This document shows positions 10,566 to 60,059 of a DNA stretch of 64,000 bases, piece after piece (within the stretch, counting starts at the first letter, position 1; each line of letters begins with the position of its first letter). The notes below the pieces were generated by a model. The model did no database searches. It was not told where the DNA came from and worked only from the letters and a program-made list of their open reading frames with translations. The position numbers were made by a program, and so were the translations under genes. The stretch is from positions 25,193,493 to 25,257,492 of the forward strand of contig OY821793.1 in NCBI GenBank assembly GCA_963682175.1, written 5' to 3'. Origin of the DNA: Triglochin maritima. Its lineage: Eukaryota; Streptophyta; Magnoliopsida; Alismatales; Juncaginaceae.

Positions 10566-12077
10566 TGTTGGCTTTTTGGCCTTAATCTTATGTTTTGATG
10601 ATTTAATCAACCGAATCTTAATTAGAGTAGCACACACTATGCATTACATATATATTGTATTGTGCTAACCTCTACAGGTGATCAAGACTCAAGAAAGATG
10701 GAAATGAAGTCAAGACATGTAATTAAAGCTAAATCGAAGACATGTAATCTTGATTTCTTTTGAGTCTTAGGAACAAAGTGTAATTGAGCATACTTGAGCT
10801 AAAATCAACTTAATCACACACTAGGTTCCCTATAGAAGTCACACACGAAATTTCACATAATTTGGACTTCAATAGATCACCCAAACTTAGACCGGAAAAC
10901 ACCAAAACTTGAATTGCATAGTCTGCCCACATTCGGTCGACCGAAACATGCCGTTCGGTCGACCGGATGATCAATTAATCATGTTTGTGTTTCCCTGTCT
11001 TGTTTCGGTCGACCGCACCATATCTTTCGGTCGACCGTCAGATCATATTTTCTCGACCGTTACTTTTGTCGTATATACCCAACGGTCGTATTCGTATTAA
11101 TCAAAATATACCCCTTATACATTTTATGTATCGGTCGACCGAGGACCAAGATCGGTCGACCGAATGAGCGTGTCCAGACAGTCCAGAATCTCCTGTCCAA
11201 AATCGGTCGACCGGAAGAACCTGTTTCGGTCGACCGTTCACATATTTGTTGTCAACCCCAAAGTGCCTGGACGAAATCGGTCGATCGAACCCTCTTAGTG
11301 TGTTCGACCGATGACTTAAGTTTTCTTAAGTCGTAGCGTTGGGCGGTCGACCGTTGCTTAACCGGTCGACCGAACTGAGTGTAAAACTGCCTAACGGTCG
11401 ACCGATTGTCCCGATCCGGTCGACCGAATTCAGCCAGATTTGGGTTCTGAATTTTCTGTTTTGTGTAATCACACTTCAACTCATACCCAATCAATCCCAA
11501 CGGCTCTATTCTCTCTAATGCCTATATAAAGAGTTGTAAAACACATTTTAACACAACTCTCCCACTACAAACTTGTCCCAAAACATTAGAGAGAATCCCA
11601 AACACTCAAAGCCTCAAACCCTTCCACACTTAGTGATCATTTCTTCATCCTACTCAAGTGTGCTCAAAGTTTAGAGAGTGTTGTTCCACTCAAGTTCTCA
11701 ATTGTTGTAAAGGAAGCAAGGACTTCGGTGAAAGCCCGAAGTGTCCCTCTCGGATTGTGAGAGGAGGAGCCAAGCTCGGCGAGGGTTGTTCGCGAGCTTG
11801 AAGACTTGTAAAGGCGTTCTCTCCCGGCCCGGAACGGGGAGTGGTTAGTGAAGTCGTAGGCGGAGCTCGGTGATCCGAGCGGAGCTTGCAAGAGAGGATT
11901 AGGACCCGGGTGGGGTGCCGAACCTCTATAAAAATCGACCCGACTTCTTATTGTTTGCATTTTCTATTCCTTACTTGTTTGTTTGTTTTAATTCCGCTGC
12001 ATTTACTCGATTGCTTAAACAAGTAGGTGATTAGATTAAGAAGTGATTAGTGGACCCACAACCCACACGATCCTACA
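10566..12077 (+). mobile_element. Solo LTR A, 1512 bp, TSD GGGTT
   Basis: Begins TGTTGGC and ends CCTACA; the 5-bp duplication GGGTT flanks it exactly (10561-10565, 12078-12082). Layout is that of an LTR: U3 with the palindrome array, a TATA box (CTATATAAAG at about 11521), then a transcribed R/U5 part with the AATTCCGCTGCATTTACTCG-like 3' part. No internal coding region, so it is the product of LTR-LTR recombination. The start and layout resemble Copia-type LTRs, but that is inferred. Confidence 0.88.
10934..11426. repeat. Paired CGGTCGACCG palindrome array A
   Basis: Palindromes start at 10934/10956, 11006/11028, 11132/11153, 11204/11227, 11278/11301, 11344/11363 and 11395/11417: seven pairs, 19-23 bp start to start. 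Several pairs repeat at 72 or 74 bp. Some members are one base off (CGGTCGATCG). It occupies the U3 of solo LTR A, directly upstream of the TATA box. Confidence 0.93.
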
Positions 12078-12082
12078 GGGTT

Positions 12083-12643
12083 AACTCAACTGAGAGATAA
12101 ATTTGTCTTGATAATTTTAGGCAGGCAAGCCTTAAGACCATCCATCAAATCCTAATAGTATCAATCACATGTTTTAAATTTAAATGAAGTGGGTAATAGA
12201 TAAAATCAAATAAAAAACATTTTAATTTGTTAAAAAATAATTATAATTTCTTACTTGAACTATATTTGATTTCATTTTGTCACGTTAAAATACGACAATC
12301 ACTAATCGTACGCTTTCTTCGTGCAACATTTTTACCTCACTCGTGAGATCCATAAAATTTGGACAAATTAGGCGTTATTTTGCGAAATTTGTATTGCATG
12401 TCTAATCACTCAAATCATAATATTATGTTTCGGATCAAATCAAACATTACTGATTTACTGCACGTAAAATTGTGAAAAACAATAACCATAACCACCGATC
12501 GGAAATTGGGAAGATCCAACCAAAGTAACCATAACACAAGTCTCGAGTAAAAGAAGGTTTTGCCTCAAAAAACACCACTCTCGCCGATCTTCACCTCCTC
12601 TTCTCCTCCGCCGGCGTCTCCCCCAAACCCTCGATCGCCGCCG
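12083..12643 (+). promoter_or_regulatory. VPS50 upstream region and leader
   Basis: The 560 bp between the solo LTR and the first VPS50 ORF. The distal part is AT-rich; from about 12560 a CT-rich leader (CACCTCCTCTTCTCCTCCG) begins. The whole intergenic promoter is short because the solo LTR ends at 12077. No TATA box was assigned. Confidence 0.4.
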
Positions 12644-12670
12644 ATGGATCTCGCCGGAGATCGCCGCTGA
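12644..12670 (+). promoter_or_regulatory. Short upstream ORF in the VPS50 leader
   Basis: An 8-codon ORF (MDLAGDRR, stop TGA at 12668-12670) ends one base before the VPS50 ATG at 12672. Such a placement would require reinitiation or leaky scanning for VPS50 translation. Its use depends on the true transcription start. Confidence 0.55.
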
Positions 12671-12671
12671 G

Positions 12672-15600
12672 ATGCTGCCGGGGCTGTCCGGGGTGAACTC
12701 GATCGTAGGAGCTGGTCTGGCCGAGGAGCTCGAGAGCCCCGGCGCGTTGTTCTTCCTCTCCGCGCTCTTCCTCCAGAGCGGGGGGATGGATTTCTCCCGA
12801 GTCGGCGAGAGGCTGCTTAGCTCCGTCCGATCCGCCCGATCCCTAGGCGTCGGGATCCTCCCCTCCGCCCCCCATCGCCCCGAGGTGCGTTCATGATTTT
12901 GGGTTTTTCGAGTTTAGGTTGACTTTAGGTTGGTTGGAAAGTGGATTTGGTTGGATTTTGGGTAATGCGGACTGGACTGTTTCTGTGGTTGAAGAGGTCG
13001 AAAAGGTAAGCGATTCGTAAAAAAGTCGAAAGGTAGTGTGATTTCGACTCCTTAGATTTGTCGGCCGGAGGTCTGTAAGATAGTGTCGTTTTGTGTCAAG
13101 AGATAGATAAACAATTTTCATAAATCTTCCGACGGAATCGATCAAATTGAAATAACATCGTAGTTGCAACGGGCAACGTGTCACGTTATATAGTTCAACA
13201 GGGCAAAGTGAAAGGTGTCCAGTTGAAACATTGTCTTGACTTTTGAGTTTGGGATTGGTAAATTGGATAATATGTGTTTCCCTGGTTAAGGAGGTCAAAA
13301 GGAAGTGTGATTTTTGACTCGGTAGATTTGCCGCCCGGAGCTTGTTGAGGTAGTGTCATCATTCAAAAGATAACGGTTTCTGTCGGTTTTCTAGTGCATT
13401 GGATCAAACTGAAACAATATCATGGTTCATGGGGGGTAAAGTGTTTCCTTCTATAGCTTAAGAGGGTAAAACTGTAATAATGTCATAGTTGAATCATTGC
13501 TTTAATTTTTGAGTTTGGGATTGGTGAATTGGGCAATGCAAACTATTTTTTTGGTCAAGAAGGGTAGAAGGTAGCTGCATTTGATTAAAGTTAATCAAAG
13601 CGAGGACAAGAAAGGAGCAGTAGAAGGCTACAATCAATCTTATTGTCTAATTTTGCTCTTGTTATTATTCTCGCAGGTTCCCGCTCGAGCAGCTGCAGCT
13701 GCTGCTATTGCGCGTGCTCTTGCAGGAATCCCTCCACATCAAAGAATTAATCTCTTGTCAAGCTCCGAAGAACTGATTTCAATCTATGGTAGCAGGCCTT
13801 CTGGCCAAAGTGTTATAGAGGACCTCGAGGAAGACTTCTATGAGGAGGTTTGTATCATGTCTTTGTACCAAGATTTGGTCAGTATCTCCAACATTGTGGC
13901 GTATGCCTTCAAACGAACATTTTTGATATGGGGTTCCCCTGATTTAGCAACTGCATGGTAGTTCAAAATCTGATTTCCACAGTGATTTGACTACTTTCAT
14001 CAATTCCTTTTTTTATAGGATTTTGATCCTGTGAAACATGTCCTCAACAACATTCCATCCGAAGGAAATGAACTCAATTATCTAGAGGAGAAGGTAAACT
14101 TAGAACCTGGCTGTGGCATATAATATCATAAATCTTTTGTTTCAAAAAAATATTGTTTGCTTTGAAAAAGAGAGCAAAGCTCACTTCCTATTTAGTAGAT
14201 ATTATACTTAAACTTTTCTGGTAGGGTTCAACGACCAAGGCCGGGATTGGTTGGTGTGGTTCTTTTCCACTAATGTATTGTATTATCAAACCATGACGTG
14301 GAAAATATGACAGAAAAGCACTATTGGCTAATGATTGTGGGAACTCATGTTGCAAAACAGTTGATTCTGTTTCTTAATGTGAATATACTTACATGAAAAA
14401 GATGTATTAGCTGGAACTTGCCAGGCAACGTGCATTACGGAAAGGGGCAATGGGTAGCACACACTTAATCAAACAGGAAATAATATGGAGTAGAACATAG
14501 ATAGGTTGGTAAGTTAACATCTAAAGTTTAAACAACTGAGTTTACGTAGTTCTCATCATAATTACAAGAGTTTTTATTTTTCACTACAACAACCATATAC
14601 CGATTATTGTTAATTGATGTCCATAATTCACTGTTACCTAAGGAAAACAAAATTTGTTTTTATTTCTTATATAATGTTAATTCGTGTTCTCGTGGCTCAA
14701 TACTTTGCCCCCATTGCTGCAATGTTCATACTTCCTCTATACAAGTGGTATTAAAGGAAATGGAACACTACATGCAGAGTTGAATTGAAAGGAAGGACCA
14801 ATGCTGCTGGAACAGTAATGGTCAATGCAGGCTAGTTAGCCAGAAACAGCAGCCAAAAGTATACCAGAGCAACCAGACTCTAGTCTATTCTATACAGATA
14901 CAGTAGTCTTAAAGCATATCACAGCACTCTTTACATTTATAACATTATATTTGGAAAGTACTTTTAGATTTCTGGCCTATTCTTTCGTTTGGTTAATTGG
15001 GATGTTAACACCTGCCTGCCACCCTGCCACTAATATTTGTCTGGGACATCTATTGTCCTCGAGGTTCATGTGATATTTTTGTCAATATAGATATTTTATA
15101 GGGAACTGCCAAAGACTAGTAAGGTTCATTATGGCAGATGAACTGTAGGAATCCCGTCTAGGCTTGAGATTGCAGGTTTAGCGTCAAGTAAAAGTTCTAA
15201 CCTGTGTATGTCAAGAAGGATAAAGATGACAAGTTTTGACAAATTTGATGCTTAAACTGATCATGAATTCCTTCAGTTCCATGCTTAACATGCATGTTAT
15301 TCCATTTCTAAATAAACAGGCCACACTTAGACTGATGCAGCTGGATAGGATAGCAGAAAGATTGTCACGTCATGTCATGGAACACCATGAAGAGATGGGT
15401 AAGTACAGTTCTTCTGTTATTGCTGGGGACAGATTAAACTGATGCGAGGTCAAGTTGGCAATGGGCGAGGGTACAGAAAACCAACTACCCATCTTCCTTT
15501 CCGCAACACTCTTAACTGTGTCATTGTAGATCACATGTTGCTTGCTTTCTTCTTTTGCATAACTTGACTTGGTCATCTTTTGATAATGATCAGCTACTTG

Positions 15601-38804: not shown

Positions 38805-38941
38805 GATCCTTCAGGCAGAAATGGGATATGATGATGGGTAAACTTTCGCCTTCCCGATTAAGGGAATAGCATGCGAAATGGGTGTCCAACCCATGCCTGG
38901 TTACGACACACTGGGCACCCCAATCGTTTCGATCTGATCCC
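38805..38941 (+). ncRNA. U13: U13 (SNORD13-like) C/D box snoRNA
   Basis: The RNA expected from the USE/TATA promoter starts at GATCCTTC. ATGATCCTTC (38803-38812) is complementary to the conserved 3' end of 18S rRNA (GAAGGATCAT). Box C is ATGATGA (38828-38834) and box D is CTGA (38934-38937). Blocks shared with human U13 as I recall it, in the same order: GATCCTT, TGATGA.TGGGT (gap-adjusted), GTTACGAC, TGGGCAC, and TCTGA near the end. U13 is not a methylation guide; it helps acetylation of a cytidine near the 18S 3' end. Length of about 137 nt is longer than vertebrate U13 (about 105). The 3' end is inferred from box D. Confidence 0.8.
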
Positions 38942-41089: not shown

Positions 41090-43003
41090 TTCTGTTCACA
41101 TATTAAAAAAAACCCACCCACATGAAATTTAAAACCTAAAACTAACCATGCAAGAACAAGTACCTACTAGGCTACCATAAATAACGTAGTCTATAAAATT
41201 ATTGAACCTCGTGAAGATAACAACGTTTGCGCTTCTTGTTGATGATGGTAGAAGCTAACAACTCTTGGAAAAAGCCATCGGTCTCTTCATTCTTGACATG
41301 GACGACCTTCACATCCAAGTGTAGCCTCCTCTTGCATGTCGTTGCCACCAAGCTTGGCTTGACCTTCTTGGGTGCTGGAGGACAACTATATGTGATGGGT
41401 ATTTTGCATTGTTTGGCATTTGGTGTTTGACATTCTTCCACTTCCTTCTTGGGCATGGTTTGTGGAAGTGTTTGGTACTGATCTTCTTCTTCTTCTTCTT
41501 CTTCTTCTTCTTCTTCTTCTACCAAGTTGATTGGGGTAGTAGTAGTAGTTAAAGGCCCACGTCTCATCTCTGGTGAAGAGGAAGAGGACATGATTGTTGG
41601 TGAAGAGCTAGCGGTAAGAAAGACTTGCAGGTATCTATATGTGACATGTCTTGTTCTTGCTCATGTTAGTTATATATATAGTTATAGTTATGTTGTCATG
41701 TATGAGAATCCAAGACTACAAGACATTGAATGCTGGATATGGTTTTATGAGGTTTAAGTATGCATGCTTTGGATTCTAATTACTTTGGATTCGGTTGGGA
41801 AGGGTATGGTTTGGAGTTGAACGTGGTATCTTATGTTTATTTTCATGTGGAAGATTTTGGACCGTTGATGAGGTCGAGATGGGACAGTTTTAATTAGGTG
41901 GTGATGCTGCCAAGGGTGCAATCTTGGATGCTGTCCGGGTCCGGCCGGTCCTAATAGACCATGTGTTATTTACTATGCTTTCATTGACAAGTTTTGGAGA
42001 ATTTAGTCATTTATAAGCTAGGATTAATCAGAGAGAGGAGTAAGGCCACTAGTTCAAATTCAATTTCAAAAGGTTTGTTAAAAAACAATAGTTTAATAAA
42101 ACAAATAAGATTGTATTTCAGGTCTCAAATTAGTCAAGACAAAAGATTAATTCCAATAATAACGAGAATTTTTTAGATTACAACAAACACAATAAGTAAT
42201 AGTATATCGTGTTTCATTATATATATGCATGTCGCATAGTTGTGACACCCGTCGGGGATCCCATATCTATGATCTCCAATCTCCAACTAACACATGCACC
42301 ATTTCTACAGAACACCAAGACACAAATTGTGTTTGGTATTTTGTCTCCATCTATATATTGTTGCATCATATTCATCGAACAATATAGTGTTTTCAATATA
42401 TTTCGGGATTTGTTTAACATTCTAAGAGATGATGGTGTAGTTGGCTATAAACAAGACAAAACATTGGTAACTCTGAGGAACCATTATTAACTTCCTAGCT
42501 CGAGTACTGTAAACAAGACGAGTGGTAAATTTTCAAAATTTCAGCAGGTTTAGCGTTACTATGTAACAACTACAAAATATTTTAGCATATACGATTTCAA
42601 ATTAAAAAAAGAAGCATGAAGAACAAAGAAACTGGTATATATATTTCTCTTCTATCAAAGATCCAAATGTCAGCTTTTCAACTGTTGTTATGCAAAGATG
42701 CAGCGGATGTCCGTCCACTGAGTGTTTGTAGAGGTTGCAGCTTTCTAGTTAATTTCTACTGCCAAAATTCTGGTGTAATTCATATTGTTTGGGTCAATTG
42801 TATAGTAGTTACCCCTGGAATTCGGTTCAACTGTAGTGGTGTAGTTGTTGACGTGCACACGGGTTTTGTGACAGATTTAATTGGTCAGAAACCATAACTT
42901 CCAAACCATTTATTTGCAGACATGAAAGTTATTGTGAGATGCAGTGGAATGTGTGATCGATGACTGCATCAGAACTACTACCCATGTGGGGTCAGCCATT
43001 CCC
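41090..43003. repeat. Left arm of a large inverted duplication
   Basis: The reverse complement of this stretch matches 46637-48720, including the SMR gene, about 1.4 kb of its upstream DNA and a weaker 3' part. Inner similarity fades at about 43003 (left) and 46637 (right); outside the genes it continues with indels. Translated copies of non-coding parts differ in only a few percent of positions, so the duplication is fairly recent. Confidence 0.92.
41199..41591 (-). CDS. SMR: SIAMESE-RELATED CDK inhibitor, copy 1
   Basis: Single-exon ORF of 130 codons. Plant SIAMESE/SMR proteins bind and inhibit cyclin-CDK complexes and drive the switch from mitosis to endoreduplication, often in stress response. 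Family motifs in order: a CQTPN block, KIPITYSCPPAPKKVK (the core SMR motif), CKRRL, an acidic NEETDGFFQELL block, and a basic KKRKR tail. The N-terminal third is low-complexity with a run of 12 Glu encoded by a GAA microsatellite. It is a paralogue pair with 48085-48474 (four substitutions and one Glu difference) in an inverted duplication; the two genes are transcribed away from each other. Which SMR clade it belongs to is not decided. Confidence 0.88.
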   Translation of the reverse strand: MSSSSSPEMRRGPLTTTTTPINLVEEEEEEEEEEEEDQYQTLPQTMPKKEVEECQTPNAKQCKIPITYSCPPAPKKVKPSLVATTCKRRLHLDVKVVHVKNEETDGFFQELLASTIINKKRKRCYLHEVQ

Positions 43004-43026
43004 CCCATCACATGAAAAATTTGGAT

Positions 43027-43054: not shown

Positions 43055-45095
43055 ACTTCTTACGTATCTATTTTGTAAAAATATAATGTAAAAACAACTA
43101 AAAATGAAATGATCTAACCTGATTTGAACTAATTTTATCAGGTCGGGTTGAGTTTAATTTCTTATGTCTTGAGATTATTATTCCGTGAGATTATTACATA
43201 TCAAACTTGGGAAAATTAATTATTACTACTCTAAATGATTACTCTCATATTTGTTACTTTATAAATTTTCTCTTTTTAATTTTTAATCTGGTTTCTAGCG
43301 CACCCTAAGTGTATAGCCTCAGATATAATTGTACCCTCGTTATATTTGAGTTACTTCGGTATACTTTCCTCACACTGAATCGTAGACCATATAAAAAAAT
43401 TATTCAGGTTAATTTGAATTTTAGATTACGTTGAAAATATACCTACATATAGGCATCCGACCGGACCATATATTTTTCCAGGGTCCGGACCGGAGACCGG
43501 ATCGGTTGGATCCGGATTGCAACCCTTAAGTTCCTTTGTTATACTTTTATTCCCCATACCATGTACCTCACACTTGAAAAAAACTTTGTAAAAAGTTTCA
43601 AAGTCTAGAAACTATGAATCTTTCCACAAACTTCCATTTACATCTATAAATAAAGGTGTCATCTTCCATTCCAAACCATTCAAGTGAAAAGTTCTCTACA
43701 ACACAAAAAGTGAGTCTTGTGTAGTAGTGTGAGCGTGTAGTCGATTTAGCTAATCCTTTGTTATAAAGTGTGAGTAAAAGTCTTGTACTGAGAAGAAAAA
43801 TCTTGTAATGAGTTGTGTTGTTTTAATAACATTAGTTAATCAATACAAGTGTCACCGACAAACTTTATCCGTCAGAGTTGGTTATCACATTTGTCGGTGA
43901 TTGTTTTCCGCCAAGAAACTTATTTTGCCACCGTCTGTGTATTTTGAAACTAACACCGATGCTACTCATCTGTCGATGTTAGTCCGTTAGTGTTAAAAAA
44001 ATTACGATTAAGATGAAAAAAATACCACTGACATTTATCTGTCGATGTTTCTTGATATATCCATTGGTTATAAGTTCCACCGACGGTCACTCGTATTTGT
44101 CGGTGTACACCAACGTTCTCCGACGGATAGTTACCCGTTGGTGTATGGTATACTATTATGTTTTGTGTTTTGAAAAAAGTAAAAATAACTACAATTAAAT
44201 TTAATGACTCGGATTTAAAGTAGTATATCATTATTTTGCTATCTTGTCTGGAATTATGTCATTTTTATTTTTGTTTAAGAGACGGTCATAATTCATTATG
44301 ATAATAAAAAACGAATCCTATAATAAGTTGAAATGTTAAACAATATAGATGAAGGTTTACAACAACAAAATTAGTGTATGCACATTTCTAAAATAAGTTG
44401 GAATGTTTAAAAAAAGTGCATATTGGAATTCTTTAGAAAAGTGAGAGTTTTCAGAATACCCTAAGCCAAGCGTTGATCCCTCCCCAAGGGTGGATACATG
44501 AACGAGAACATATTTCGCTTGTACAGTCCACGGTAAGTTTTTGGTATCTTTAATTCTGAAAAAGCAATGGAACAAGAAAAATAATGTTTTGCACTTTAAT
44601 TCTGAAGGCCAGAACGTTCCATGTGGCCATCTCGTTCGTACAGTAGAAAATATTGTTGACATTTTCGTAGCGATGTGATACAATACTCTGAATTGTGCTA
44701 TTTCTCATGAACGCTCGAATCACAGTGTGAAGCCATAATTGCTAAAAACACACTCTTTTTATCCTTCACTTCAATTCCTGATACATCATCTTGTTGCTTT
44801 GCTATTTAGATGTACTACAAAAAAAATTATTTCTATATATACTGAAAATCTTAGAATCGTTCCAAACCAACATATATGGTATCCTCCTTATCGTTACACA
44901 GTTGAAATAACTCAATGAAATATCAATCTAGCGTAACTTAAAATCATACTCGTATATCCAACTGTGCCAATGTATTTCAATGTTGCTTCATGAATTAAGA
45001 CCGGCGAGTTGACTCCTACCAGAGTCTCCATGATAATTTTTTGATTTTCAATTTCTAGAATTGGAATCGGCTCACAATTGAGAAACTTGACTATG
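43055..45095. other. Spacer of the inverted duplication, mostly unassigned
   Basis: 43450-43525 is a diverged piece of the CCGGACC-rich hAT MITE family seen at 9233. 43850-44150 contains a set of ACCGACGG/TGTCGGTG units in both orientations, like subterminal repeats of CACTA elements, but no CACTA ends were found. The remainder to 45095 shows no feature I can support. Confidence 0.4.
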
Positions 45096-46505
45096 TGTAA
45101 CGTCCCGAAACAACAGAAAATTTAAAACTTTTAAAAGATAGGAATCAAACACAGAGACGTTACAAAAATCACACACGCACGCGCTCACACACACACACAC
45201 ATATATCGACAGGTACACTGTATATGATACATGAAATAAGAAGTGTGATTACAACAACAAAAGATATACAACATGTACAAATGTAATCACAACAACCTCA
45301 AAAACAAGGAAGACAAAATCTGGTCTAAGTGCTCCCGCTATCAGTCACCACCTTCTAACGACGCTCATGACCTGAAATACAATAACATACTATACCTGAG
45401 TTTTCCATAAGGAAATTCCGTATGTCAAACTCTTAAAACATGAATTAACAAATGTATGACATGATATGAGAAATGCAATGCATCAAAACTGCCACCGTCC
45501 AACTGGGTTCTCGAGATCTCTCTCCCAACCACAATCGACACCACAACACGGGTCTCAAGAGTCCACTCACCCTAACCCCACAATCACACGTGCATACAAG
45601 GCACCGCCGGAAAATCATCGATCACGGATCTCAATGGTCCTCTCACCCCCAACCTCACAAATCACACGTGTACGCAAGACACCATCGGAAAATCATCAGC
45701 CAAACAAAACACACGTGCTCCTCAAAGCCACAACCACGATCTCTCTCAGGCCGGAATGTCCGTACCGTTGCCCTAAAAATGTCAGGGACCCATTGCCCTC
45801 GAGGCAGATCCAAACCACAATCAACACAAGCAATATATGCAAAATTGGGCAGAAACGGTTGAACGAAATCCACAGACAGTCGACCGAAACCCCACAACTA
45901 TTCCAAAAATAACCAAAATAACCAACACCCGGTCGAACGGCAATGAGGACCGTTCAACCGAAAACCACCAGTAAATCCTCTTCTTGCTCAACAAGCACAT
46001 TCGGTCGAACTAAAATAAGGTCAACGGTCGACCGAACATTACCAGTAAAACACAAAATCAAACCAAACTACACCGGTCGACCGAAACAATAACGGTCGAA
46101 CAAACATTAAGTTAACTTAAGTTATCGGTCGGACGAGTCAAACATGCGATCGACCGTTTGGATAGTCAACGCCCCTAACCGACTTACGACAGTGCTTCCG
46201 GTCGAACGACAAATGGGACCCGTTCGACCAAAACCACCAAGAGTCTCCATCTTCTCGCTCAAAATGCACAACCGGTCGACCACCAAAGGGTATCGTTCGA
46301 CCGGTGTGAGAGATACCACCCAAAATACAGTACAACCGGTCTACCGAACCAATCAACGGTCGACCATTACAGTGCAAAAATCTGTTGCATAACCTCCGAC
46401 GAGCCTTTCGGCCTACCGTCGACTGCTCAAACACTCACACTAACTAGGGTGAGCATAAAAGTAAAGCTTGACATACCTTTAAGGTTTCCCACACCAACCC
46501 TTCCT
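45096..46505 (-). mobile_element. Truncated LTR X (TGTAACGTCCC..type)
   Basis: On the minus strand the element ends in TTTCGGGACGTTACA (left edge 45096), as does solo LTR Y. The part with GTATGTCAA, TCGACGG.AGGCCGAAAGGCTCGT matches solo LTR Z (58630-58705). It holds a palindrome array. Its 5' part is missing: homology stops at about 46505, shortly before the right arm of the inverted duplication begins. The right limit is approximate. Confidence 0.75.
45860..46430. repeat. Paired CGGTCGACCG array X (decayed)
   Basis: Pairs begin for example at 45930/45951, 46001/46025 and 46074/46093, so 19-24 bp within pairs and 71-73 bp between pairs. Many members show single changes such as CGGTCGAACG. 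Confidence 0.85.
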
Positions 46506-47931
46506 TCCATTGATGCTGCCAACACTTGCTGATCAAACAAATGCAGATATATTCTCCCCAGACATTGACATTTTACCGAGCGTCATGTTATATGCGCATC
46601 TATCTCGCATAAAAAACACACGACTATCTTACAAATTCAGCTCCCCCATATGGGTAACATTACTAATGCAGTCATCGATCACACATTCCACTGCATCTCC
46701 CAATAACTCTCATGTCTGCACATAAATGGTTTGGAGGTTATGGTTGCTGACCAATTAAGTCTGTCACAAAACCCGTGTGCACGTCAACAACTACACCACT
46801 ACAGTTGAACCGAATTCCAGGGGTAACTACTATACAATTGACCCAAACAATATGAATTACACCAGAATTTTGGCAGTAGAAATTAACTAGAAAGCTGCAA
46901 CCTCTACAAACACTCAGTGGACGGACATCCGCTGCATCTTTGCATAACAACAGTTGAAAAGCTGACATTTGGATCTTTGATAGAAGAGAAATATATATAC
47001 CAGTTTCTTTGTTCTTCATGCTTCTTTTTTAAATTTGAAATCGTATATGCTAAAATATTTTGTAGTTGTTACATAGTAATGCTAAACCTGCTGAAATTTT
47101 GAAAATTTACCACTCGTCTTCTTTTACAGTACTCTAGCTGTGAAGTTAATAATGGTTCCTCAAAGTTACCAATGTTTTGTCTTGTTTATAGCCAACTACA
47201 CCATCATCTCTTAGAATGTTAAACAAATCCCGAAATATATTGAAAACACTATATTGTTCGATGAATATGATGCAACAATATATAGATGGAGACAAAATAT
47301 AGATGCAACAATTTGTGTCTTGGTGTTCTGTAGAAATGGTGCATGTGTTAGTTGGAGATTGGAGATCATAGATATGGGATCCCCCACGGGTGTCACAACT
47401 ATGCGACATGCATATACATAATGAAACACGATATACTATTACTTATTGTGTTTGTTGTAATCTAAAAAATTCTCGTTATTATTGGAATTAATCTTTTGTC
47501 TTGACTAATTTGAGACCTGAAATACAATCTTATTTGTTTTATTAAACTATTGTTTTTTAACAAACCTTTTGAAATTGAATTTGAACTAGTGGCCTTACTC
47601 CTCTCTCTGATTAATCCTAGCTTATAAATGACTAAATTCTCCAAAACTTGTCAATGAAAGCATAGTAAATAACACATGGTCTATTAGGACCGGCCGGACC
47701 CGGACAGCATCCAAGATTGCACCCTTGGCAGCATCACCACCTAATTAAAACTGTCCCATCTCGACCTCGTCAACGGTCCAAAATCTTCCACATGAAAATA
47801 AACATAAGATACCACGTTCAACTCCAAACCATACCCTTCCCAACCGAATCCAAAGCATGCATGCTTAAACCTCATAAAACCATATCCAGCATTCAATGTC
47901 TTGTAGTCTTGGATTCTCATACAAGACAACA

Positions 47932-47935
<4 letters not shown>

Positions 47936-47999: not shown

Positions 48000-48000
<1 letters not shown>

Positions 48001-48084
48001 CCAACATGAGCAAGAGCAAGAACAAGACATGTCACATATAGATACCTGTAAGTCTTTCTTACCGCCAGCTCTTCACCAACAATC

Positions 48085-48474
48085 ATGTCCTCTTCCTCTT
48101 CACCAGAGATGAGACGTGGGCCTTTAACTACTACTACTACCCCAATCAACTTGGTAGAAGAAGAAGAAGAAGAAGAAGAAGAAGAAGAAGATCAGTACCA
48201 AACACTTCCACAAACCATGCCCAGGAAGGAAGTGGAAGAATGCCAAACACCAAATGCCAAACAATGCAAAATACCCATCACATATAGTTGTCCTCCAGCA
48301 CCCAAGAAGGTCAAGCCAAGCTTGGTGGCAACAACATGCAAGAGGAGGCTACACTTGGATGTGAATGTTGTCCATGTCAATAATGAAGAGACCGATGGCT
48401 TTTTCCAAGAGTTGTTAGCTTCTACCACAATCAACAAGAAGCGCAAACGTTGTTATCTTCATGAGGTTCAATAA
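48085..48474 (+). CDS. SMR: SIAMESE-RELATED CDK inhibitor, copy 2
   Basis: Single-exon ORF of 129 codons, almost identical to the copy at 41199-41591. Differences seen: one Glu fewer in the acidic run, PRKE for PKKE, two Lys to Asn changes in the HLDVNVVHVNN stretch, and TTINK for TIINK. The core motif KIPITYSCPPAPKKVK, CKRRL, the ETDGFFQELL block and the KKRKR tail are all unchanged, so both copies should be functional. The promoter region carries a long TA microsatellite that copy 1 lacks, so expression of the two could differ. Role as for copy 1: nuclear inhibitor of cyclin-CDK, promoting endoreduplication. Confidence 0.88.
   Translation: MSSSSSPEMRRGPLTTTTTPINLVEEEEEEEEEEEDQYQTLPQTMPRKEVEECQTPNAKQCKIPITYSCPPAPKKVKPSLVATTCKRRLHLDVNVVHVNNEETDGFFQELLASTTINKKRKRCYLHEVQ

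Positions 48475-49154: not shown

Positions 49155-49156
<2 letters not shown>

Positions 49157-49205
<49 letters not shown>
49157..49205. repeat. TA microsatellite, about 24 units
   Basis: Directly next to the left end of the TIR element at 49212. Confidence 0.95.
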
Positions 49206-49211
<6 letters not shown>

Positions 49212-49246
49212 ATTATAGAATGAGCCCTGGACTCATTTAAGCTTAA

Positions 49247-49762
49247 GGGGGTGTTAGTGGCGCGGAAAGCTCCGGAAAGTGATTTTCGGAGTCAATGGGA
49301 AAGCAGAGGAAAACAGAATCCAGTGGAAAACAGTTTCCCTTTGACTGAATTCTGTTGTTTGTGCCTGCTTCGGAAAACAATTTGGATAAGAAAAACGGAC
49401 GACCGAACTAGTTTCGGTCGACCGAAATGCGACTTCCTCATAGTGAACGTAAACGGAAGACCGAACTAAGTTCGGTCGTCCGAACGGGTCATTCTAGTTA
49501 CGAATTCGGTAGACCGAAATATGTTCGGTCGTCCGTTATATTCATTTTCGGTGGACCGAATGTTTGACGGTCGACCGAAAAAATTCGGTTTCCGTGGTTT
49601 TCCAACCTCAAAGTGACGGAAAACTCAAAGAAAATTTTATACATACCACAGAATCCGACGGAATCCGTGTTTTCGTGCACAAACGCCCCATTTCCGGAGT
49701 CAACCGGAATCCAAATTCCGTTTCCGTCGGATTCCCTCGGAATCCATGTGCACAAACCCCCC
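49247..49762. mobile_element. Tourist-like MITE, 516 bp, TSD TAA
   Basis: Ends GGGGGTGTTAGTG and, inverted, CACAAACCCCCC, flanked by TAA on both sides (49244-49246, 49763-49765), as expected of PIF/Harbinger-type elements. The outer parts are rich in GGAAA/TTTCC and TCCG words in inverted arrangement. The centre carries four pairs of CGGTCGACCG-like motifs. It is nested near the left end of the 49212 element. Confidence 0.75.
49396..49577. repeat. Paired palindrome array in the MITE
   Basis: Four pairs at 49396/49415, 49454/49473, 49507/49526 and 49549/49568: each pair is exactly 19 bp start to start. Members are CGGTCGACCG or variants such as CGGTCGTCCG, CGGTAGACCG and CGGAAGACCG; flanking TT..AA extends most of them. 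Confidence 0.9.
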
Positions 49763-51075
49763 TAAGTGAGCCCCCTAAACATCCACCATCTAAATTTAAT
49801 CCAACAGTTGTTATAATATCTTATTAAAATTACAAACACAAGGGTAATATTGGTATTAGGCAAACCTAAAACCCTTTCACTCTCACCAACACAAAACCCA
49901 TACCTTCGCACCCTTCTCTCTCCTTCTCTCTCCCTCCCAAGCCGAAATGGAGGTCGGTGCTGGAACGCACAAATCTCCACTTCCTTTCTAGGGTTCGACT
50001 CCCTTCTTTCCGGCGAATTTGGTTTCCGCTACGACTTCTCCCCCACCCCGTGAGTTTCTCGATCTTTACGCTCCCTTCCACAACTTGTCACATTCCATTC
50101 CTGCCTCATTTACGATTTTGAATTTTGATTCCTCGTTGGTTTTGCCTATTTGGAAATGGGCTCTTGTCGATTTCTAAATTTATTGGGAAAATCCACTTGG
50201 ATTTTGGGTTTTCGTGTTGTTCTGTTGATCCAAGATGGGATCTTGCTGGTTGCATCAAAAAAGGTGGCATCGTTTTGGATTTGGTTTGTGTCTGGTTCGA
50301 TTTGGTATGTGTTGTGCTTGTAATTCAGTTTGGATGTTGTTCTAATTTGCTTGCTTGATTTTTATGTTGTTTGGATCTTGCAATAACTGAAACGGTGATA
50401 TCTTTCTATAGCTTGTGGCTCCCCTTTGGTTTGATTTAGTATGTGTTATGTTTTTGATTTTGCATGTTGTATATTGCTCACTTGTGATTTTCATTCTGTT
50501 TTGATCTTGATGCAACTAAAAAAGTGGCATCTTTATGTCATTTGTGCCTCTCCGTTGTTTTGTTTGTGTTTGGTTGGTTTGGTGTGTGTATTCTTTTGGA
50601 AATTATGACTTAGTTTGAGGGTTGCTTGTATGTTGTGATTTGCTCATTAATGGTCTTCATGCTGTTTGTGACTTGCAATAACTATAAGGTAACATCTTTC
50701 TGTCAATGAGATTGTACTGCACTTTTCGTAATATAAGGTAATATTACGGCTAATCATTTAATTTCATTTTACTGTTTTACATATATTGTTACAATTTATT
50801 ATTGATATTGTAGTAATCAACTATTTTCGTTTCCTGAATTTAGTTGGTATGATTTCAATCATTATTTAGTTTAATAGTTTATATGGAATTCCACTACTTA
50901 TGTCGAACTTCTTTCACAACTAATTACCTTTGCAATCCTATAATTGACTAAATTCAGGACATGCAAAAGCTGGAGTTTTTTAGTGGGTATGTCGCTTCCT
51001 GTTTTTTGGTTTCTATTAAGCATGCATTTAGAGTTTATTGTTTCTACCACTAATTAGTTTAAATTTTTTTTGCAG

Positions 51076-52815: not shown

Positions 52816-52827
52816 TCAACGAAATCA

Positions 52828-53290
52828 GCCCATTTTCCCAAAACAAATTCGGAAAACAAACCAAACCAAAATAAATCATTAAATCCAATCTCAAATCAAA
52901 TATCCACGAAATCAACCTATGATCCCCCCAAAAAAAATCCCGAAACCAAACCAAAAATCCACAAAACCAATACCAATGAAATCAACCCATGTTTTCCCAA
53001 AAAAAATTCGAAAACCAACCAAACCAAAAGAAATCATCAAATTTAATCACAAATCAAATAACCACGAAATCAACCCATGATCCCCCAAAAAACCCCGAAA
53101 TTAAACCAAACCAAACATCCACAAAACCAATACCAATGAAATCAACAAATGTTCTCCCAAAAAAATTCGGAAAACAAACCAAAAGAAATCATCACATATA
53201 ATATCCACGAAGTCAACCCATGATCCCCAAAAAAATCCCGAAACTAAACCAAACATCCACAAAACCAACCAAATATCTTAAGATCCTACA
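52828..53290. repeat. Tandem repeats of about 145-160 bp
   Basis: The block around CCACGAAATCAACC.ATGATCC recurs at about 52903, 53062 and 53206, alternating with CCAATGAAATCAACCCATGT blocks. Located just inside the right end of the 49212 element. Confidence 0.8.
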
Positions 53291-53573
53291 ATTCCCAATG
53301 ATTCTCCGACGAAATGGATGGCGTAGGAGGAGACGACTTGGATGGGAGATCGTGGGTAGGGTTGGGAGGGAGAGGAGAAAGACAATGAGAAATTTGGGAG
53401 GAATAGTGAGAGGGAATTTGGGTTTCTTGGAATAAATGAATAAGGATGACGAGGAAGATTCTCAAATTTACTTTACTACCCTCACTTTAAGTAAAATGCT
53501 CACAACCATTCAGATTGAGATGAATGGTTAGATCTTGAGGAGCTCATTTAAACAAAATGAGCCCTGGGCTCAT

Positions 53574-54269
53574 TCTATCCTATTAGGTACAGTGACTTTC
53601 TTTCTAATACTCACTGCATTGAAGATGAAGTGCAACTCATCATGACTCGATCACGAGCACTTCAATGTTAGTTGACACTTGTAATTAAGGGGATGCCAAC
53701 TTTTTGTGCAACATACAAACATATAAACCATATGCTAAACTTGTTGGACTTTTAACTATATAGATGATGCAATTAACATGTCGAATTCTTTGACTAATTA
53801 TTCTATCTATAGGATTATCTAAAGCTCTAGCTGATCACATGGTCATCCCTAGCTAGTTGACCCACGATGGAGGTGTGAAAAGCTTCTGTAGACTCTAAAA
53901 TAATTGAAAAATCAAACATGATGGCGTGCCTTCGACGTAATTTCAGATTGGTGTAATATATGAATGAGATGATGGTATCGAGAAAAGATTAGTCTAACAC
54001 TATGGCGCACATATTTTCTTTATTACGCAAGCAATTAAGGACCACAATTGCATGGCATTCGATGTATCCAACTCATTCACACTTGGAAACGGTTCATCAC
54101 CACATTTAATTTGTAGATCACTCGCCACGTGAGTTCTAGTTAAGCCTCGTACGTATGCTTTGGTAGAACTTCGTGTCTGTGTATAGCCCTTCTTTCGCAC
54201 GTAAGTCTGATCTACCAATAGTTGAATTCCCAATTCTTCACCGTTTACCTTAATCCCTAGGTAAATACT
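53574..54269. other. Intergenic DNA, nothing assigned
   Basis: A minus-strand ORF of 77 codons at 54000-54233 matches no family I know. Nothing else is visible. Confidence 0.4.
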
Positions 54270-54288
54270 TGTTGGGAGGGGGATCTAC

Positions 54289-56137
54289 TGTAAAGACGTG
54301 TGAGAGAGAGAGTGAGGGTGAGGGAGGTATGGAGTGGAGTGAGGTGAAGTATGGGTGGAGATATGATGAGGGTGTGGGTTAGGTGTTAGGGTTTGTTTAT
54401 AAAAACCAAAAATCTCACCATTTTTACTCTTTTGTTTGCCATTTCGTTTTCCACCCCAAACTCACCCATCTTCTTGCATTCCGGCGACCAGAGGACGAGG
54501 GAGGACGCCGGCGACGTGGTGAAGTCGACGCATGCGAAGGAGCGCCGGGAACGGAGGAAAGAAGGAGAAGAAGCTAGAAGCGACGCCGGAGGAGGAGGAG
54601 CTCGCCGCACACGTCTTCTTCGGGGTGAAAGGTATGTCAAGTCTTCATAGTAACTCCCCAAGAGGTGTGGGAGTGTAGGGGGGCGGCGTTGGTGCCGTTT
54701 TCCCCGGTGTAACCCACTGAACCAAGGTTGAAGACGACTGGTTCGGTCGACCGTTGTGTGTCTCGGTCGACCGAACAACGTCTAAATGATGCCTGTTCAG
54801 TGGCGATATTGTAGTGTTTCGGTCGACCGTGTTAGGTTCGGTCGACCGATATTTTATAAAAATAACTTGCTGCCCGAAAACGGTCGAACGACGTCTGTGT
54901 GACGGTCGACCGTTTATGCCAAATTTTAGCGGGAATATTTTATAAGGGTTACATTATTCCAGTCGACCGGTGGTTGTTCGGTCGACCGATCCCAGTAGAT
55001 AGGGTAGACAGACCTTCGGCCGACCGAGTGTGTGTCTCGGTCGACCGAACTGCGCAAAGTCGGTCAAGAGCGTTGACCATCTAAACGGTCGACCGCTCTG
55101 GATCCGTTCGTGTAGTTTTCCTGTAGTGAAGTGCCTGCTGATCCGGTTGACCGAAAGAGTTTCGGTCGACCGAATGCAGTGGGCAGGATTCATGCAGTTT
55201 TCCTTATCGGTTGAACGGACCCTGGTTCGACCGACAGGATATATATGTATAGAAAACGTAGCGTAGACCTTCCAAACGGTCGACCGCTAGATTTGACCTT
55301 GTTCGACTGGTGGGTCGAATTATCTTTCCTTGGTGGATTTATCCACATGCGGGACGTCGAGCAGAGGCGACTACCGGCTGCCGAGCCCACGGTCGATCAC
55401 CGGACCTCGGAGCTACGGATTTCACCTACGACGAGAGCGTATTTCTGTTGGACCCTTCGTGGATGCCGGTGCGGCAGAGGGATGCCTGTCATGCCTGTGT
55501 GGGTGGTATATGCCTTCTTCCCTGATGGGGGAAGGGGATGCACTTTCCCTGTGGAGGAGAGCGGAGACCCCCTCGTGTGGGCCTGGATTGGCAGGGGGGA
55601 TGCCTTCCATGCCCCTGTGTGCGGCTGGGAGATGAGAGCGGCGACCCCCCTCGTGTGGGCCTGGATTGGCAGGGGGGATGTTTTCCATGCCCCTGTGTGC
55701 GGCTGGGAGATGGTCCGTGGCGGTTGGAGCATTCATTGGGCCCGAGGCGGATTGCATTGCATGAGCATTCTTGGCTTTTTCATCTGTATTTCTGTATATG
55801 TAGGAGATGTTGGCATACGGGGTTCCTTTCGGGAACTCATGCAGATTTTATGTTTCATTTTCAGGGAGCAGGCGGTCTTAGGTTGGTGGTGACCGAGGGG
55901 AGTGCCTCCGGGATCGGGTCCTGTCTCTTTATCTTTTTGTAGAGGTAGTGATTACTGTAGTTATGTATTAGACTAGTAATCGCTCTTTTGACACTCTGTA
56001 TTATGACTTCCACGTGGAGATATTTTATATATATATTCTGTTGACTTTTCCAGTAACGTGCCCCGGTTGACCGTTGACGGTCGTATGTTTATGTTTTAAA
56101 TTTTGAAAAATTTCTTCCGCTGTTTCGGGACGTTACA
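54289..56137 (+). mobile_element. Solo LTR Y, 1849 bp, TSD TCTAC, nested in E
   Basis: Begins TGTAAAGACG and ends GGGACGTTACA, flanked by TCTAC (54284-54288, 56138-56142). TATA-like TTTATAAAAACC lies at about 54396. A GC-rich stretch at 54480-54650 and the palindrome array follow. 55555-55715 is a tandem duplication of about 86 bp (CTCGTGTGGGCCTGGATTGG unit). LTRs with TGTAAC..TTACA ends are common in Tekay-type Ty3/gypsy elements; this assignment is inferred. The 215-codon ORF at 55245-55892 lies over repeats and is not a gene. Confidence 0.9.
54744..55300. repeat. Paired CGGTCGACCG array Y
   Basis: Pairs at 54744/54764, 54820/54839, 54881/54903, 54960/54979, 55017/55038 and more to 55300: 19-22 bp within pairs, 57-79 bp between pairs. 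Located downstream of the LTR's TATA box, unlike in LTRs A and E. Confidence 0.9.
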
Positions 56138-56578
56138 TCTACGATGCACTAACTCGACACGGATTACACGCACCATGAAAAACGAATATTGTATGCGGAA
56201 ATTAACTTCTGACCCTATCCTAAACTTAATGCAACAAGCAAACACAATTAAGATGGAAATAACAAGCAATCACACAACACACCTGAAGCAAACCACGACA
56301 CACACGATTTTACAAGGTTCGGCAAGATGCCTACGGTCTTGGGGGGTCTCCTGCGGGTTTCCTTTCCTTGAAGCTCTTCTCCAATAAGAGAAGTCTCCGA
56401 GATTACACAAGTTTGGAAGCAATGCGTCTCCCAAAGCACTCTAGATCTCTCTCTAGCCTAATCTCTCTCAAGGAAATAAAGATTGTATGTTGTATTACAA
56501 GATTAGGGCAAAAAACCTATTTATAATGGGCTAAATTCGTACAGAAAATAAGTCAGATCGTGCATAACTGTCTCCAAA

Positions 56579-56966
56579 TGGTCGACCGGAATTGCCCATT
56601 CGGTCGACCGTTCTTCGGTTAATATGCATAACCGTCAATGTTCGGTCGACCACTCGCCCCGAGCCGGTCGACCGTTCCGCGCTTCTGAATAGCGCCCGAA
56701 GCTCCTGGACGTTTTCGGTCGACCGCGAGTCCAACACCGGTCGACCGTTCTGCAAGTCGATTTTCATCTCCCAGCTACTGTCGCTTTTCGGTCGACCGCG
56801 TGCCCAGCACCGGTCGACCGGATCTCGAACCATCCCGAGCTCCAAATCTACTAACGTTTTTCGGTCGACCGATTTCCCCGAAACGGTCGACCGTTCCTCG
56901 ATCTGTTCTGAGCTTCCAGGCTCCTGGAGTAAATCGGTCGACCGTGACTTAAGTTTCGGTCGACCG
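56579..56966. repeat. Paired CGGTCGACCG array E, strict 22/73 spacing
   Basis: Pairs at 56579/56601, 56643/56665, 56716/56738, 56789/56811, 56862/56884 and 56935/56957. Start-to-start distance within every pair is 22 bp; between pairs it is 73 bp (first step 64). Almost all are the exact palindrome. Sequence between palindromes is much less conserved. Confidence 0.95.
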
Positions 56967-57017
56967 TTTCTCCCTATTTTCCTGTATTAACAATTATAAA
57001 CCAAAACGAACAATACT

Positions 57018-58168
57018 TCATCTTCTTTTTTAGATATGATATACATACAAAGGGAGCGGAAAATCATGTCTAGAGGTCTAGCCAAGACTCAGATCGTGTA
57101 ATTAACTTTCGGTTGATTGGTGATACTTTAGATGATCAGCTGAGATAATTCAATTTGTCTGCTTGTTGCATCTCTTGGAAACAAATCGGTGAGAAATCCG
57201 GAATTGGAAATCGGATTGGACTAATCTGGTTTGGAACTAAACCCCTTGAGCTTCGGAGCATGACAATGGTTATTGATAAATTGCATATAGTTAATAACTA
57301 AAAATTATGTGTTGTAAGATGATAATGTGGTAGTTTAGAATAACTTGTAATTGGATTGTGCCTTCTCCCAAGAGAACCTTTCGATTTCTCAAAGATTATC
57401 AATGTTTTTTTTTATGGATTCTCAGCATCATGCTATTGTCGGTACCAATTCGTCCTCAAATAATATTGATTGTCCTAGGTTGGATATCAATTTGGTTGCT
57501 CCACCACTTAATCATTTTCTTAAGCTAGCAAAGAAGAAGCTGTCCAATCCAAAACTGGGATATCATTAGCTTCAAAAAAATAATCTCTTTAATTAAATTA
57601 TTGACACATGACAACATTGCCCCCACGTATATGCTAATTGCCTAATTATCTGTAGTGCTCTTTATACATAACACAAGACATAAGGATGAATACATGCAGT
57701 AAACATGCAAACAATTTAATATATATATATATTCTGTTGTTATCCTTATGGGTAGTTTAATTTGATTGTGTTCATATACTCTTCAGAACTTCTGATTTTA
57801 AGTTAATACGTCGTAAAAATCAACGTCAATTATCCACCAAATTAACCCTTATTTTTTATGCAAATTTTCATTTCTCGGAGGACCAAGGTCATCATAGATA
57901 TTTAATTTTTTGTCTATGAAAAATTAAAAATCATGTGTAACTATATATATATATATATATGTTCCTGAACTTCTCCATCAATATATCCATTTATTATTGA
58001 TCTGGAAAAATCAAACCAACTATCACTGTTATACGCGAAGCTTCAACTGTCAAAGTTCGACAAACCGACAAAAACGAAAATGTTTGTTGGTGTCGCAAAA
58101 TAATAATATTAGTTGTTTTTTTCTGGGTTTTTTAATAGCACTACATGGTTGGTCAACTCTCCCCAATT
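57018..58168. other. AT-rich intergenic DNA
   Basis: Contains short TA runs (57718-57732, 57942-57960). No gene or element is recognised. Confidence 0.5.
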
Positions 58169-58173
58169 ATCTC

Positions 58174-58328
58174 TGTAATATCCTAATTAGGTTTTAATTG
58201 ATATTTAGGTAGTTGATTGTTGGTTTGGAGGAGAGAAAGTGAACGGTGAGGTGGAGACTCTTGATTGGTGGTTGGTGAGGGGTGAGTATAAATGAGATCT
58301 ACATTTTTTTCTCTTTCTCACTCTCACG

Positions 58329-58359
<31 letters not shown>

Positions 58360-60059
58360 TCCGTTGCTCCAGCGATCTCGGGCGAGAAGAGGTGTTCGAC
58401 GAGTGTTGGTCGTGTTGCGAGGTGAGTCGATTCTCAAGCTAAACCCATCTCTCTTGCTTTGTTCTCTCTCTCAATCCGTCTCCCTCTCAGTGGTTGGTGT
58501 GGTGATCGACGAAGGTGAAAGGGTTGTTGTGGATGGATGAGGTGGTGTGATCGTTGATCGAGCGAGAAGTTCGTCGGAAATCGTGTTTTGGAGAGAAGTG
58601 CTCGTGGAAGCGTCGTTGAGGTACGGTATGTCAAACTTGTTGTTGTAGCTCACTTATGTTGTGTGAGTAGTTGAGAAGTCGACGGTAAGCCGAAAGGCTC
58701 GTTGCAGGTAACATGCAACCGTTTATCTGCTGGGTCGGTCGACCGTTGCACCAACCGACTGAACGATGCCTTTGGGCGGTCGACCGATGGTGCATTAGAG
58801 GCAAGCCCTGGTTGTTTCCGGTCGGACGAGCCCCCTTTGCCGTTCAACCGTGTGCACTGTTGTAGGTCGGTTGAAGGCATTGACCATCTAAACGGTCGAC
58901 CACCCGTTGACTCATTCGACCGATAGTACATGTAACAAGTCGATTGGAGCCTAGACCATCTTAACGGTCGACCGCTTATTGATTTCGTTCGATCGATGAC
59001 ATAAGTTAACTTAATGTTGGTTCGACCGATGGTGGTTCGGTCGACCAGTGTTGTTTGGATTCGTTGGAGGTTTTACTGGTGGTTTACGATCGACCAAGTG
59101 TTCTTGGTGGTTCAATCGATTAATATTGTTGAGCGATGGGAGATTCTACTGGAGATCTCTAGTCTAACGACCCCCCTTTGCCGTTTGACCAATTGTTAGT
59201 TGCGTTCGTTGAACCTAGGAGGTGACATTATAAACGGTCGACCGGTCGCTGACTTTGGTTCGACCGAACGTGGTGTTGTTGGTGGGAGGTGTTTAACCGA
59301 TGGAGTGCCGGTCGAGGCACTTGCCTGGTTTTGATGAGAATCGGTGTACCGGGACTCTTGGTTTGGTCGACCATTATTGTTCAGTTTTGCACATGTTAGG
59401 TGTGTTTGGTGTGGTCGTCCTTGTGAGACGAGTTGTGATGCCGATGTTCTTCCGACAAGTGTGCTTGTGGGCACGGGTGTTGCGGGGGTTGAGCCCTGGA
59501 GCCCCGTAACTGTTTGTGAGAACTGTGGTTGGGTGAAAAAGCCTTGGAGCCCAGCTAGTCTGTGCGGGGTTGGGTGAAAAAGCTCTGGAGCTCCGTAGTG
59601 CGTTCGGGTTGGGTGAAAGAGTCATGAAGCCCGAGCAAGGACCGCATGATAAAGGTTGAGTGAAAAAGCCCTGCAACCTAACCTTGTGTTTATGCTTTTC
59701 TTTGCTGATAGAATTGCATGCTAGAGTATTTTCAGTTTCATGCATTTGTAGAGTTTGACATACGAGGTTTCATTCTGGAAACTCAGGTATTGTTGCATGT
59801 TTACCTTTCAGGCCGTGACCGACGTTAGGGGGTGGAGACCGATGAGAGGAGCGCCGTTACCAGATCCTGCTTTCTCTCATTTTGAGATCGGTGTGATTAC
59901 TTATACTTTTGTATAACTTTTTGATGTAATCACACTTTTGAAACACTCGAATATATATTATATATGTTGGTGCACCGTTTTTCTTGTGTTTTGAGTATTA
60001 TCTTCTGTTTAATTGTATGTTTAAAAATTTTAAAATTTTTCGCTGTCGAGGATGTTACA
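58174..60059 (+). mobile_element. Solo LTR Z, 1886 bp, TSD ATCTC
   Basis: Begins TGTAATATCC and ends GGATGTTACA, flanked by ATCTC (58169-58173, 60060-60064). A TATA box (GAGTATAAATGAG) lies at about 58283, followed by a CT microsatellite at 58330-58358 as in a leader. A decayed palindrome array covers 58736-59370. 59500-59690 has diverged tandem units of GGTTGGGTGAAAAAGCCCTGGAGC type. Shares ends and layout with solo LTR Y and the truncated LTR X. Confidence 0.9.
58736..59370. repeat. CGGTCGACCG array Z (decayed)
   Basis: Exact and one-off copies (for example 58736, 58778, near 58889, 58962 and 59234) mixed with forms such as CGGTCGGACG, CGTTCAACCG and TGGTTCGACCG. Many changes are C to T or G to A at the CpG steps. 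Confidence 0.8.

Follow-up and report, generated by a model that had tools for sequence, protein, structure and literature searches.

Why should transposons of different superfamilies carry one and the same short palindrome, laid out in pairs at nearly fixed distances? The question is raised by a stretch of 64,000 nucleotides from Triglochin maritima (assembly GCA_963682175.1, contig OY821793.1, forward-strand positions 25,193,493 to 25,257,492), referred to here as the window. Six arrays of the 10-bp palindrome CGGTCGACCG lie in it, within the long terminal repeats (LTRs) of retrotransposons and in a miniature inverted-repeat transposable element (MITE). The palindrome arrays are a real, strong and genome-wide feature. 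Judged from sequence, they may be enhancer-like platforms for a putative sequence-specific multimeric DNA-binding protein, likeliest a single transcription factor of the host or a small family of such factors, a reading that is given a probability of about 0.58.

Abundance, spacing and conservation of the palindrome

The first-pass annotation of the window described paired 10-bp palindromes at six loci, and this description is confirmed. The window contains 65 strict sites, defined as copies of CGGTCGACCG that differ from it at no more than one position, where 100 shuffles average 0.28; 62 of the 65 fall inside the six named array stretches (Table 1). Strict-site pairs at 19-23 bp are clear in the arrays of LTRs A, Y and E and of the MITE, two are found in X and none in Z; when degenerate sites are counted too, 40 pairs can be drawn in the window. 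Mismatches within these pairs are near balance (30 outer versus 36 inner). The pair period of about 72-73 bp that was also claimed holds for part of the arrays: steps of 72-74 bp from pair to pair make up four of five in E, five of seven in X and half of those in A (3/6), and do not occur in Y (0/7) or the MITE (0/3).

The assembly searched comprises 1,063 Mb (1.06 Gb) in 167 contigs. It holds 95,718 perfect CGGTCGACCG pairs with a gap of 5-20 bp, and 86,109 perfect pairs have a gap of 9-13 bp, that is 19-23 bp start to start. Among the first 100 pair places listed the distances are 18-25 bp, with 22 bp in 50 of them. Genome-wide, zero pairs at a gap of 5-20 bp were found for the reversed pattern, and zero such pairs for CGGACGTCCG, a palindrome of the same composition. 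The outcome that the annotation had named as speaking against its reading, a genome without any surplus of pairs at 19-24 bp, is thus not what the counts give. Arrays were present in two of nine blindly taken 5-kb stretches, and IMG/VR yielded nine stretches, each with one pair. In 335 kb of sequence, mostly loci selected for pairs, CGGTCGACCG occurs 372 times against 16 for 63 other GC-edged palindromes combined, on which count a generic effect of GC-rich palindromes is rejected. A chance origin of the arrays is rejected by the window shuffles, the genome-wide counts and the control palindrome.

Spacing was compared across further loci, numbered with the prefix L, which are genome stretches mostly chosen for perfect pairs. 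In all, 43 arrays with at least four strict sites, the two LTRs of one element counting as two arrays, form 13 clusters by shared 14-mers, treated here as families. Nearest-neighbour site distances peak at 22 bp and then at 42, 51, 63-64 and 73 bp, and the site autocorrelation oscillates as far as 200 bp. With one array per cluster, coherence peaks at 0.432 for a period of 10.5 bp and is 0.02-0.11 at 9.5-10.0 and 10.9-11.5 bp. Seven chosen lineage arrays give a mean cosine of 0.567 at 10.5 bp, against values of at most 0.318 in 1000 jitter draws in which the between-pair gaps were shifted by up to 5 bp. The between-pair gaps alone reach 0.505 at their peak of 10.7 bp, against at most 0.471 in 5000 jitter draws. 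Rayleigh p values at 10.5 bp lie below 0.05 in 7 of 13 families and at ~1e-3 or less in 5 of 13, and are too small because pairing makes the sites dependent. Array A of the window is in phase at this period (p ~2e-4), as is its copy in L039 (p 0.005). Genome-wide, 28,483 pairs lie at 50-53 bp against 10,862 at 45-48 bp, in counts weighted by copy number; several of the listed 45-48 bp pairs are two summed steps (e.g. 22 + 25) in dense arrays. A separate observation is a dense stretch of gypsy array (L040:3764-3904) with sites every 21-26 bp, a layout unlike the 22/51 pattern.

The sites are also more constant than the sequence around them. Between arrays, site identity is 0.935-0.977 in all bins of divergence while that of the spacers falls from 0.984 to 0.660 (192 directed, non-independent comparisons of at least 150 bp, with pairs whose spacers are at least 0.999 identical kept outside the bins); high site identity is favoured by the choice of loci for perfect pairs. 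In the closest bin, of four comparisons, the sites (0.977) are slightly below the spacers (0.984), a difference that would follow from CpG decay once the elements had inserted. Perfect copies make up 288 of 422 distinct sites, and the commonest change, G3 to T (34), is no CpG transition. This change is confined mostly to the inner half of pairs (28 inner, 2 outer), chiefly in gypsy arrays. At the flanks of the sites A or T is preferred at positions +-2 and G is avoided at -1.

Helical phase, conserved sites and diverged spacers together point to a candidate protein on double-stranded DNA. The binding-site array for a multimeric protein put forward in the first-pass annotation is thus supported, not proved, by the 10.5 bp period and by sites that are conserved while spacers diverge. 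It draws further support from a flank preference that reaches beyond the 10-mer and from flanking bases that add nothing to a hairpin stem.

A companion palindrome, ACTTAAGT, accompanies the arrays, with 16 copies in 18.3 kb of array against 13 in 290.7 kb outside (duplicate LTRs counted). In the copia E-type and L014-type arrays it lies halfway between the two sites of a strict pair, 11-13 bp from either centre; in the gypsy loci L012, L015, L016 and L017 it lies 11-12 bp from one site. The remaining distances are 21, 31, 33-35, 42 and 52-53 bp, and also 18, 40 and 45 bp.

Host elements of the arrays

Elements with arrays in both LTRs were found at L001, L002 and L003. Ty3/gypsy proteins (RVT_1, RT_RNaseH, Ty3_capsid) are encoded by L001 and L002, and L002 has in addition a chromo-domain match under the Pfam cut-off (23.2 versus 25.1 bits). 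The gag-pol open reading frame (ORF) of L002 spans 96% of its internal region, and seven other frames of at least 140 amino acids gave zero Pfam family matches. This is a young copy, since its two LTRs share every 25-mer over 2.19 kb at a single offset. Pieces of Ty1/copia proteins stand between the arrays in L005, L006, L007, L014 and L018. The internal regions of these copia hosts, at ~4-4.4 kb, seem short for Sireviruses.

The arrays had been described as shared by unrelated transposons. This stands for gypsy and copia, on their coding regions, and for the MITE, on its ends; it does not stand for X, Y and Z. The arrays of X, Z and L011 align at 64-68% over 575-609 bp, and the Y-type L001 aligns with L017 at 70% over 250 bp; L002 aligns with L017 over 458 bp. 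With the arrays masked, matches persist for X-Z, X-Y, L001-Y, L001-Z, L002-X, L002-Y, L002-Z and L001-L002. Being alike outside the arrays too, X, Y and Z belong to one gypsy lineage, so that the supposedly unrelated hosts are a few lineages, not six, and six independent host families are rejected. Under the same masking, the LTRs of copia L005 and of A match none of the seven LTRs compared. Family A is known from three full-length copies (window, L019, L039), stands alone and is placed in neither superfamily. A large region of nested direct and inverted repeats of 68-95% identity was also seen at L039:889-2940.

By clustering of the arrays, LTR Y groups with the gypsy LTRs of L001/L003 and LTR E with the copia LTRs of L005/L007; in the window the Y solo LTR is inserted into the E solo LTR, each with its own target-site duplication (TSD). 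The MITE is PIF/Harbinger-like, judged on its ends only. LTRs related to the copia E type, at L018:716-992 and L016:7006-7196, carry sites such as CGGTCTACCG, CGGTCCACCG and CGGTTCACCG, and the centre of the palindrome can thus vary within a family.

Table 1. Array-bearing elements of the window, with positions counted from its first nucleotide; strict sites have at most one mismatch to CGGTCGACCG
Feature	Position	Strand	Strict sites	Remarks
LTR A	10566..12077	+		1512 bp; TSD GGGTT; same ends in the L019 and L039 copies
Array in LTR A	10934..11426		13	pairs 19-23 bp
LTR X, partial	45076..46477	-		gypsy-type via homology to Z and L017; ends approximate
Array X	45856..46418		10	degenerate; CGGTCGAACG often partnered with CGTTCGACCG-like sites
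MITE	49246..49764			imperfect GGGGGTG-type ends; TAA target duplication; ends approximate
Array in MITE	49396..49577		7	19 bp pairs; without helical phase
Solo LTR Y	54289..56137	+ (orientation inferred from LTR ends)		1849 bp; TSD TCTAC
Array Y	54744..55309		14	start 346 bp past TATAAA pattern at LTR position 110
Solo LTR E	54270..57012	-		889 bp minus Y insertion; TSD ATACT
Array E	56579..56966		12	22 bp pairs; steps 64 then 73 bp
Solo LTR Z	58174..60059	+ (orientation inferred)		1886 bp; TSD ATCTC; gypsy-type via homology
Array Z	58736..59373		6	decayed or degenerate; zero strict pairs

The position of the arrays relative to the TATA box was taken from pattern matches, not from mapped transcription starts. 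The distance from the end of the array to TATAAATA is 54 bp in L005, L007 and E, and in E TATAAATA follows the array in the sense of transcription; one pair of array E has ACTTAAGT at its midpoint. In LTR A the array is followed at 97 bp by a TATA pattern, which stands at LTR position 958. The order is the opposite in L001, Y and Z, where the pattern comes early (LTR position 110-141) and the array begins 298-449 bp further on. L002 shows no early TATA pattern, and L003 shows only a TATATATA run.

Several further features of the window were recorded. Tandem 33-bp CpG-rich palindromic units (GGCGTCT..AGACGCC) form arrays at 5620-5751, 8393-8524, 60738-60968 and 61336-61566. The first two flank an ORF for a Mutator-like element (MULE) transposase (5767-6240), and the last two flank ~370 bp. 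These are a second type of palindrome array, unrelated to the CGGTCGACCG arrays. An inverted duplication of 97% identity joins 46644-47700 and 41938-42991 and is possibly longer, as the query stopped at 47700; near it lie two ORFs of 140-153 amino acids, alike, at 48052-48474 and 41199-41660. A small nucleolar RNA (snoZ279/snoR105/snoR108) was found at 38823-38941 (+) with 67.8 bits. A search with one ORF of the window gave no homologue.

Candidate functions and origin of the arrays

On the reading of the arrays as enhancer-like platforms, one host factor or a small family of them would be exploited by a MITE and by several lineages of LTR retrotransposons. A dimer would bind each palindrome, neighbouring dimers would cooperate and the bound array would raise LTR transcription. 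Copia arrays would act from just upstream of the TATA box; in some of the gypsy LTRs the array would act from inside the leader of the transcript. The candidate binder is probably a host factor, because gypsy L002 shows gag-pol and no other recognised gene. For the same element the transposon-encoded binder suggested by the first-pass annotation finds no backing, as the further frames of at least 140 amino acids are without a Pfam match.

A number of results weigh against a host-factor platform. Six of 13 families are unphased at p < 0.05: the Y-type gypsy family has p 0.47, the MITE p 0.43, and several of the others have only 4-6 sites. The later gypsy arrays L040 (p 0.12) and L041 (p 0.58) are unphased as well. 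In the seven-array test the gypsy lineage was represented by L011, an array that is phased; the best period for the between-pair gaps alone is 10.7 bp and not 10.5; and the 50-53 bp contrast carries the weighting by copy number. Only copia arrays have ACTTAAGT at the midpoint of strict pairs, and its distances of 18, 40 and 45 bp are off the helix. The order of array and TATA pattern differs between gypsy and copia, L002 being without an early pattern, and the site was matched to no known plant factor.

A further result on that side comes from RNA folding, in which 8 of the 16 folds exceed their spacer-shuffled versions in stability at z <= -2. The adjacent self-complementary 10-mers could form 10-bp stems in the transcript, any two copies of the palindrome being able to pair, and act as a small-RNA signal or a functional RNA element, an idea put forward for the palindromes of maize Sireviruses (Bousios 2016, as cited in PMC10760457). 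The excess over shuffled controls is strongest in the MITE and one L011 strand (z -4.3 to -4.7), and 6 of 16 folds beat spacer-permuted versions at z <= -2, Y most strongly (25 mononucleotide shuffles or permutations for each fold). The order in L001, Y and Z, with the array after the TATA pattern, suits such hairpins. However, 94 distinct perfect pairs show no extension of the stem above the level of shuffles (of eight flank positions, none with z > 1.9 and three with z < -2), double changes in the window divide into four that preserve Watson-Crick pairing and four that break it, and the A and c0 arrays have no extra stability against spacer shuffles. Helical spacing across 50-200 bp would not be expected from local hairpins, and RNA hairpins are considered an unlikely explanation.

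Descent has to be weighed separately from function. One ancestral array, or pieces of it, could have been passed among LTR families via recombination, giving common descent in place of convergence, and this would fit either the presence or the absence of a binding function. The LTRs of X, Z, L011, the Y type and the L002 type are homologous, and a spacer word around ACTTAAGT is common to gypsy L002/L016 and copia L014. Between the gypsy arrays and the copia E-type, L014-type and A arrays there are 28 matches with E <= 1e-10, of which 20 span at least 200 bp. With shuffled spacers, matches of that length and significance numbered zero in seven of eight draws and one in the remaining draw. A second control, in which sites, half-sites, degenerate sites and ACTTAAGT were kept and the spacers shuffled, gave 0-12 matches, 0-10 of them of 200 bp, in 20 draws. 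The real count is inflated, because family copies are correlated there but lose this correlation on shuffling, and the best real score, 71 bits, does not exceed the shuffled scores, which go up to 91. Where alignments were anchored at the sites, spacer identity between copia and gypsy is 0.50-0.62, overlapping the weakest gypsy-gypsy value (0.57-0.58). As copia and A arrays resemble gypsy arrays more often than the shuffles do, an exchange between superfamilies keeps some small weight; copia L005 and A match no gypsy LTR outside the arrays, neutral spread would not conserve the sites alone, and array exchange is judged distinctly improbable. For the repeated capture or evolution of the arrays that had been proposed, the evidence is divided: the lack of a match outside the arrays for copia L005 and A is set against the resemblance of their arrays to those of gypsy, more frequent than in shuffled controls, which leaves room for exchange.

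The anti-silencing model, in which a protein encoded by the transposon would bind the array and take silent marks away in the manner of VANC from VANDAL elements, would suit the type of target, since VANC targets are short motif arrays in non-coding transposon parts, according to the accessible text of PMC10398659. The same text has VANC targets as family-specific, while the motif here crosses superfamilies; with no gene beyond gag-pol recognised in L002, this model is very improbable. The platform for a host factor is preferred over these alternatives, with the probability given above. In a stronger form, offered tentatively, one host protein assembling cooperatively on one helix face might be the common transcriptional key for gypsy, copia and MITE elements. 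It would act through ~86,000 two-site modules, the lineages having converged or exchanged, with ACTTAAGT marking a partner protein.

Significance and comparison with known systems

In 2010 the function of palindrome arrays in plant LTRs could not be settled, as no common binding factor had been identified. With their sharing across superfamilies and their helical rule, the arrays now lend themselves to a direct test, the bait being already at hand. If a single factor does drive several lineages, it would offer one handle on transposon activity and be a source of binding sites numbering tens of thousands genome-wide.

Arrays of the palindrome as such are already known, and the sharing across gypsy, copia and a MITE, the pairing, the helical rule and the ACTTAAGT companion appear new within the literature covered. 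Among the matches listed for the exact palindrome, only PMC2829016 appeared relevant by title. A query for GGTCGACC with plant transcription factors led to PMC12316476, where GGTCGACC is a primer. Literature on the LOB domain, on gypsy with copia and on Sirevirus palindromes named no binding factor among the matches listed, subscription papers lying mostly outside the coverage.

One of the closest known systems is the repeated motif of Sireviruses. In the accessible part of their paper, Bousios et al. (2010; PMC2829016) give CGGTCGACCG as the repeated motif (RM) of the Vitis (grape) Sirevirus, find a CGG-CCG signature in 12 of 13 Sireviruses with repeated motifs and report the motif as Sirevirus-specific and absent from classic retrotransposons. 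Matches to stress-factor cores are listed there, and a common site for a single factor was not identified. As cited in the part of PMC10760457 available, Bousios 2016 tied maize Sirevirus palindromes to an excess of small RNA, and Grandbastien 2015 regards them as the cis-regulatory region. The arrays share with the RM the same CGGTCGACCG palindrome with its CGG-CCG core, many copies per LTR and, in copia LTRs, apparently the place upstream of the TATA box (PMC2829016, in part). A TATA pattern follows the array in L005, L007, E and A, stands ahead of it in L001, Y and Z and is not seen early in L002. Sirevirus RMs are defined by at least eight copies per element, a number reached in A, Y, E and X, with the MITE (7) and Z (6) below it. 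The hosts differ in including Ty3/gypsy LTRs (L001, L002) and a MITE, and pairing, helical phase and ACTTAAGT do not appear in the accessible text of PMC2829016.

The likeness to VANDAL elements lies in short motif arrays in non-coding transposon DNA; in the same part of PMC10398659, VANC is encoded by the element and family-specific, unlike a motif that crosses superfamilies and an L002 without an extra recognised gene. The classified hosts here are LTR elements and a MITE, with no VANDAL MULE among them. The LTRs of ONSEN/COPIA78 carry heat-response elements, for which the factor is HSF. They resemble the present arrays as an LTR enhancer made of host-factor sites, and differ in having another motif and a factor that is known.

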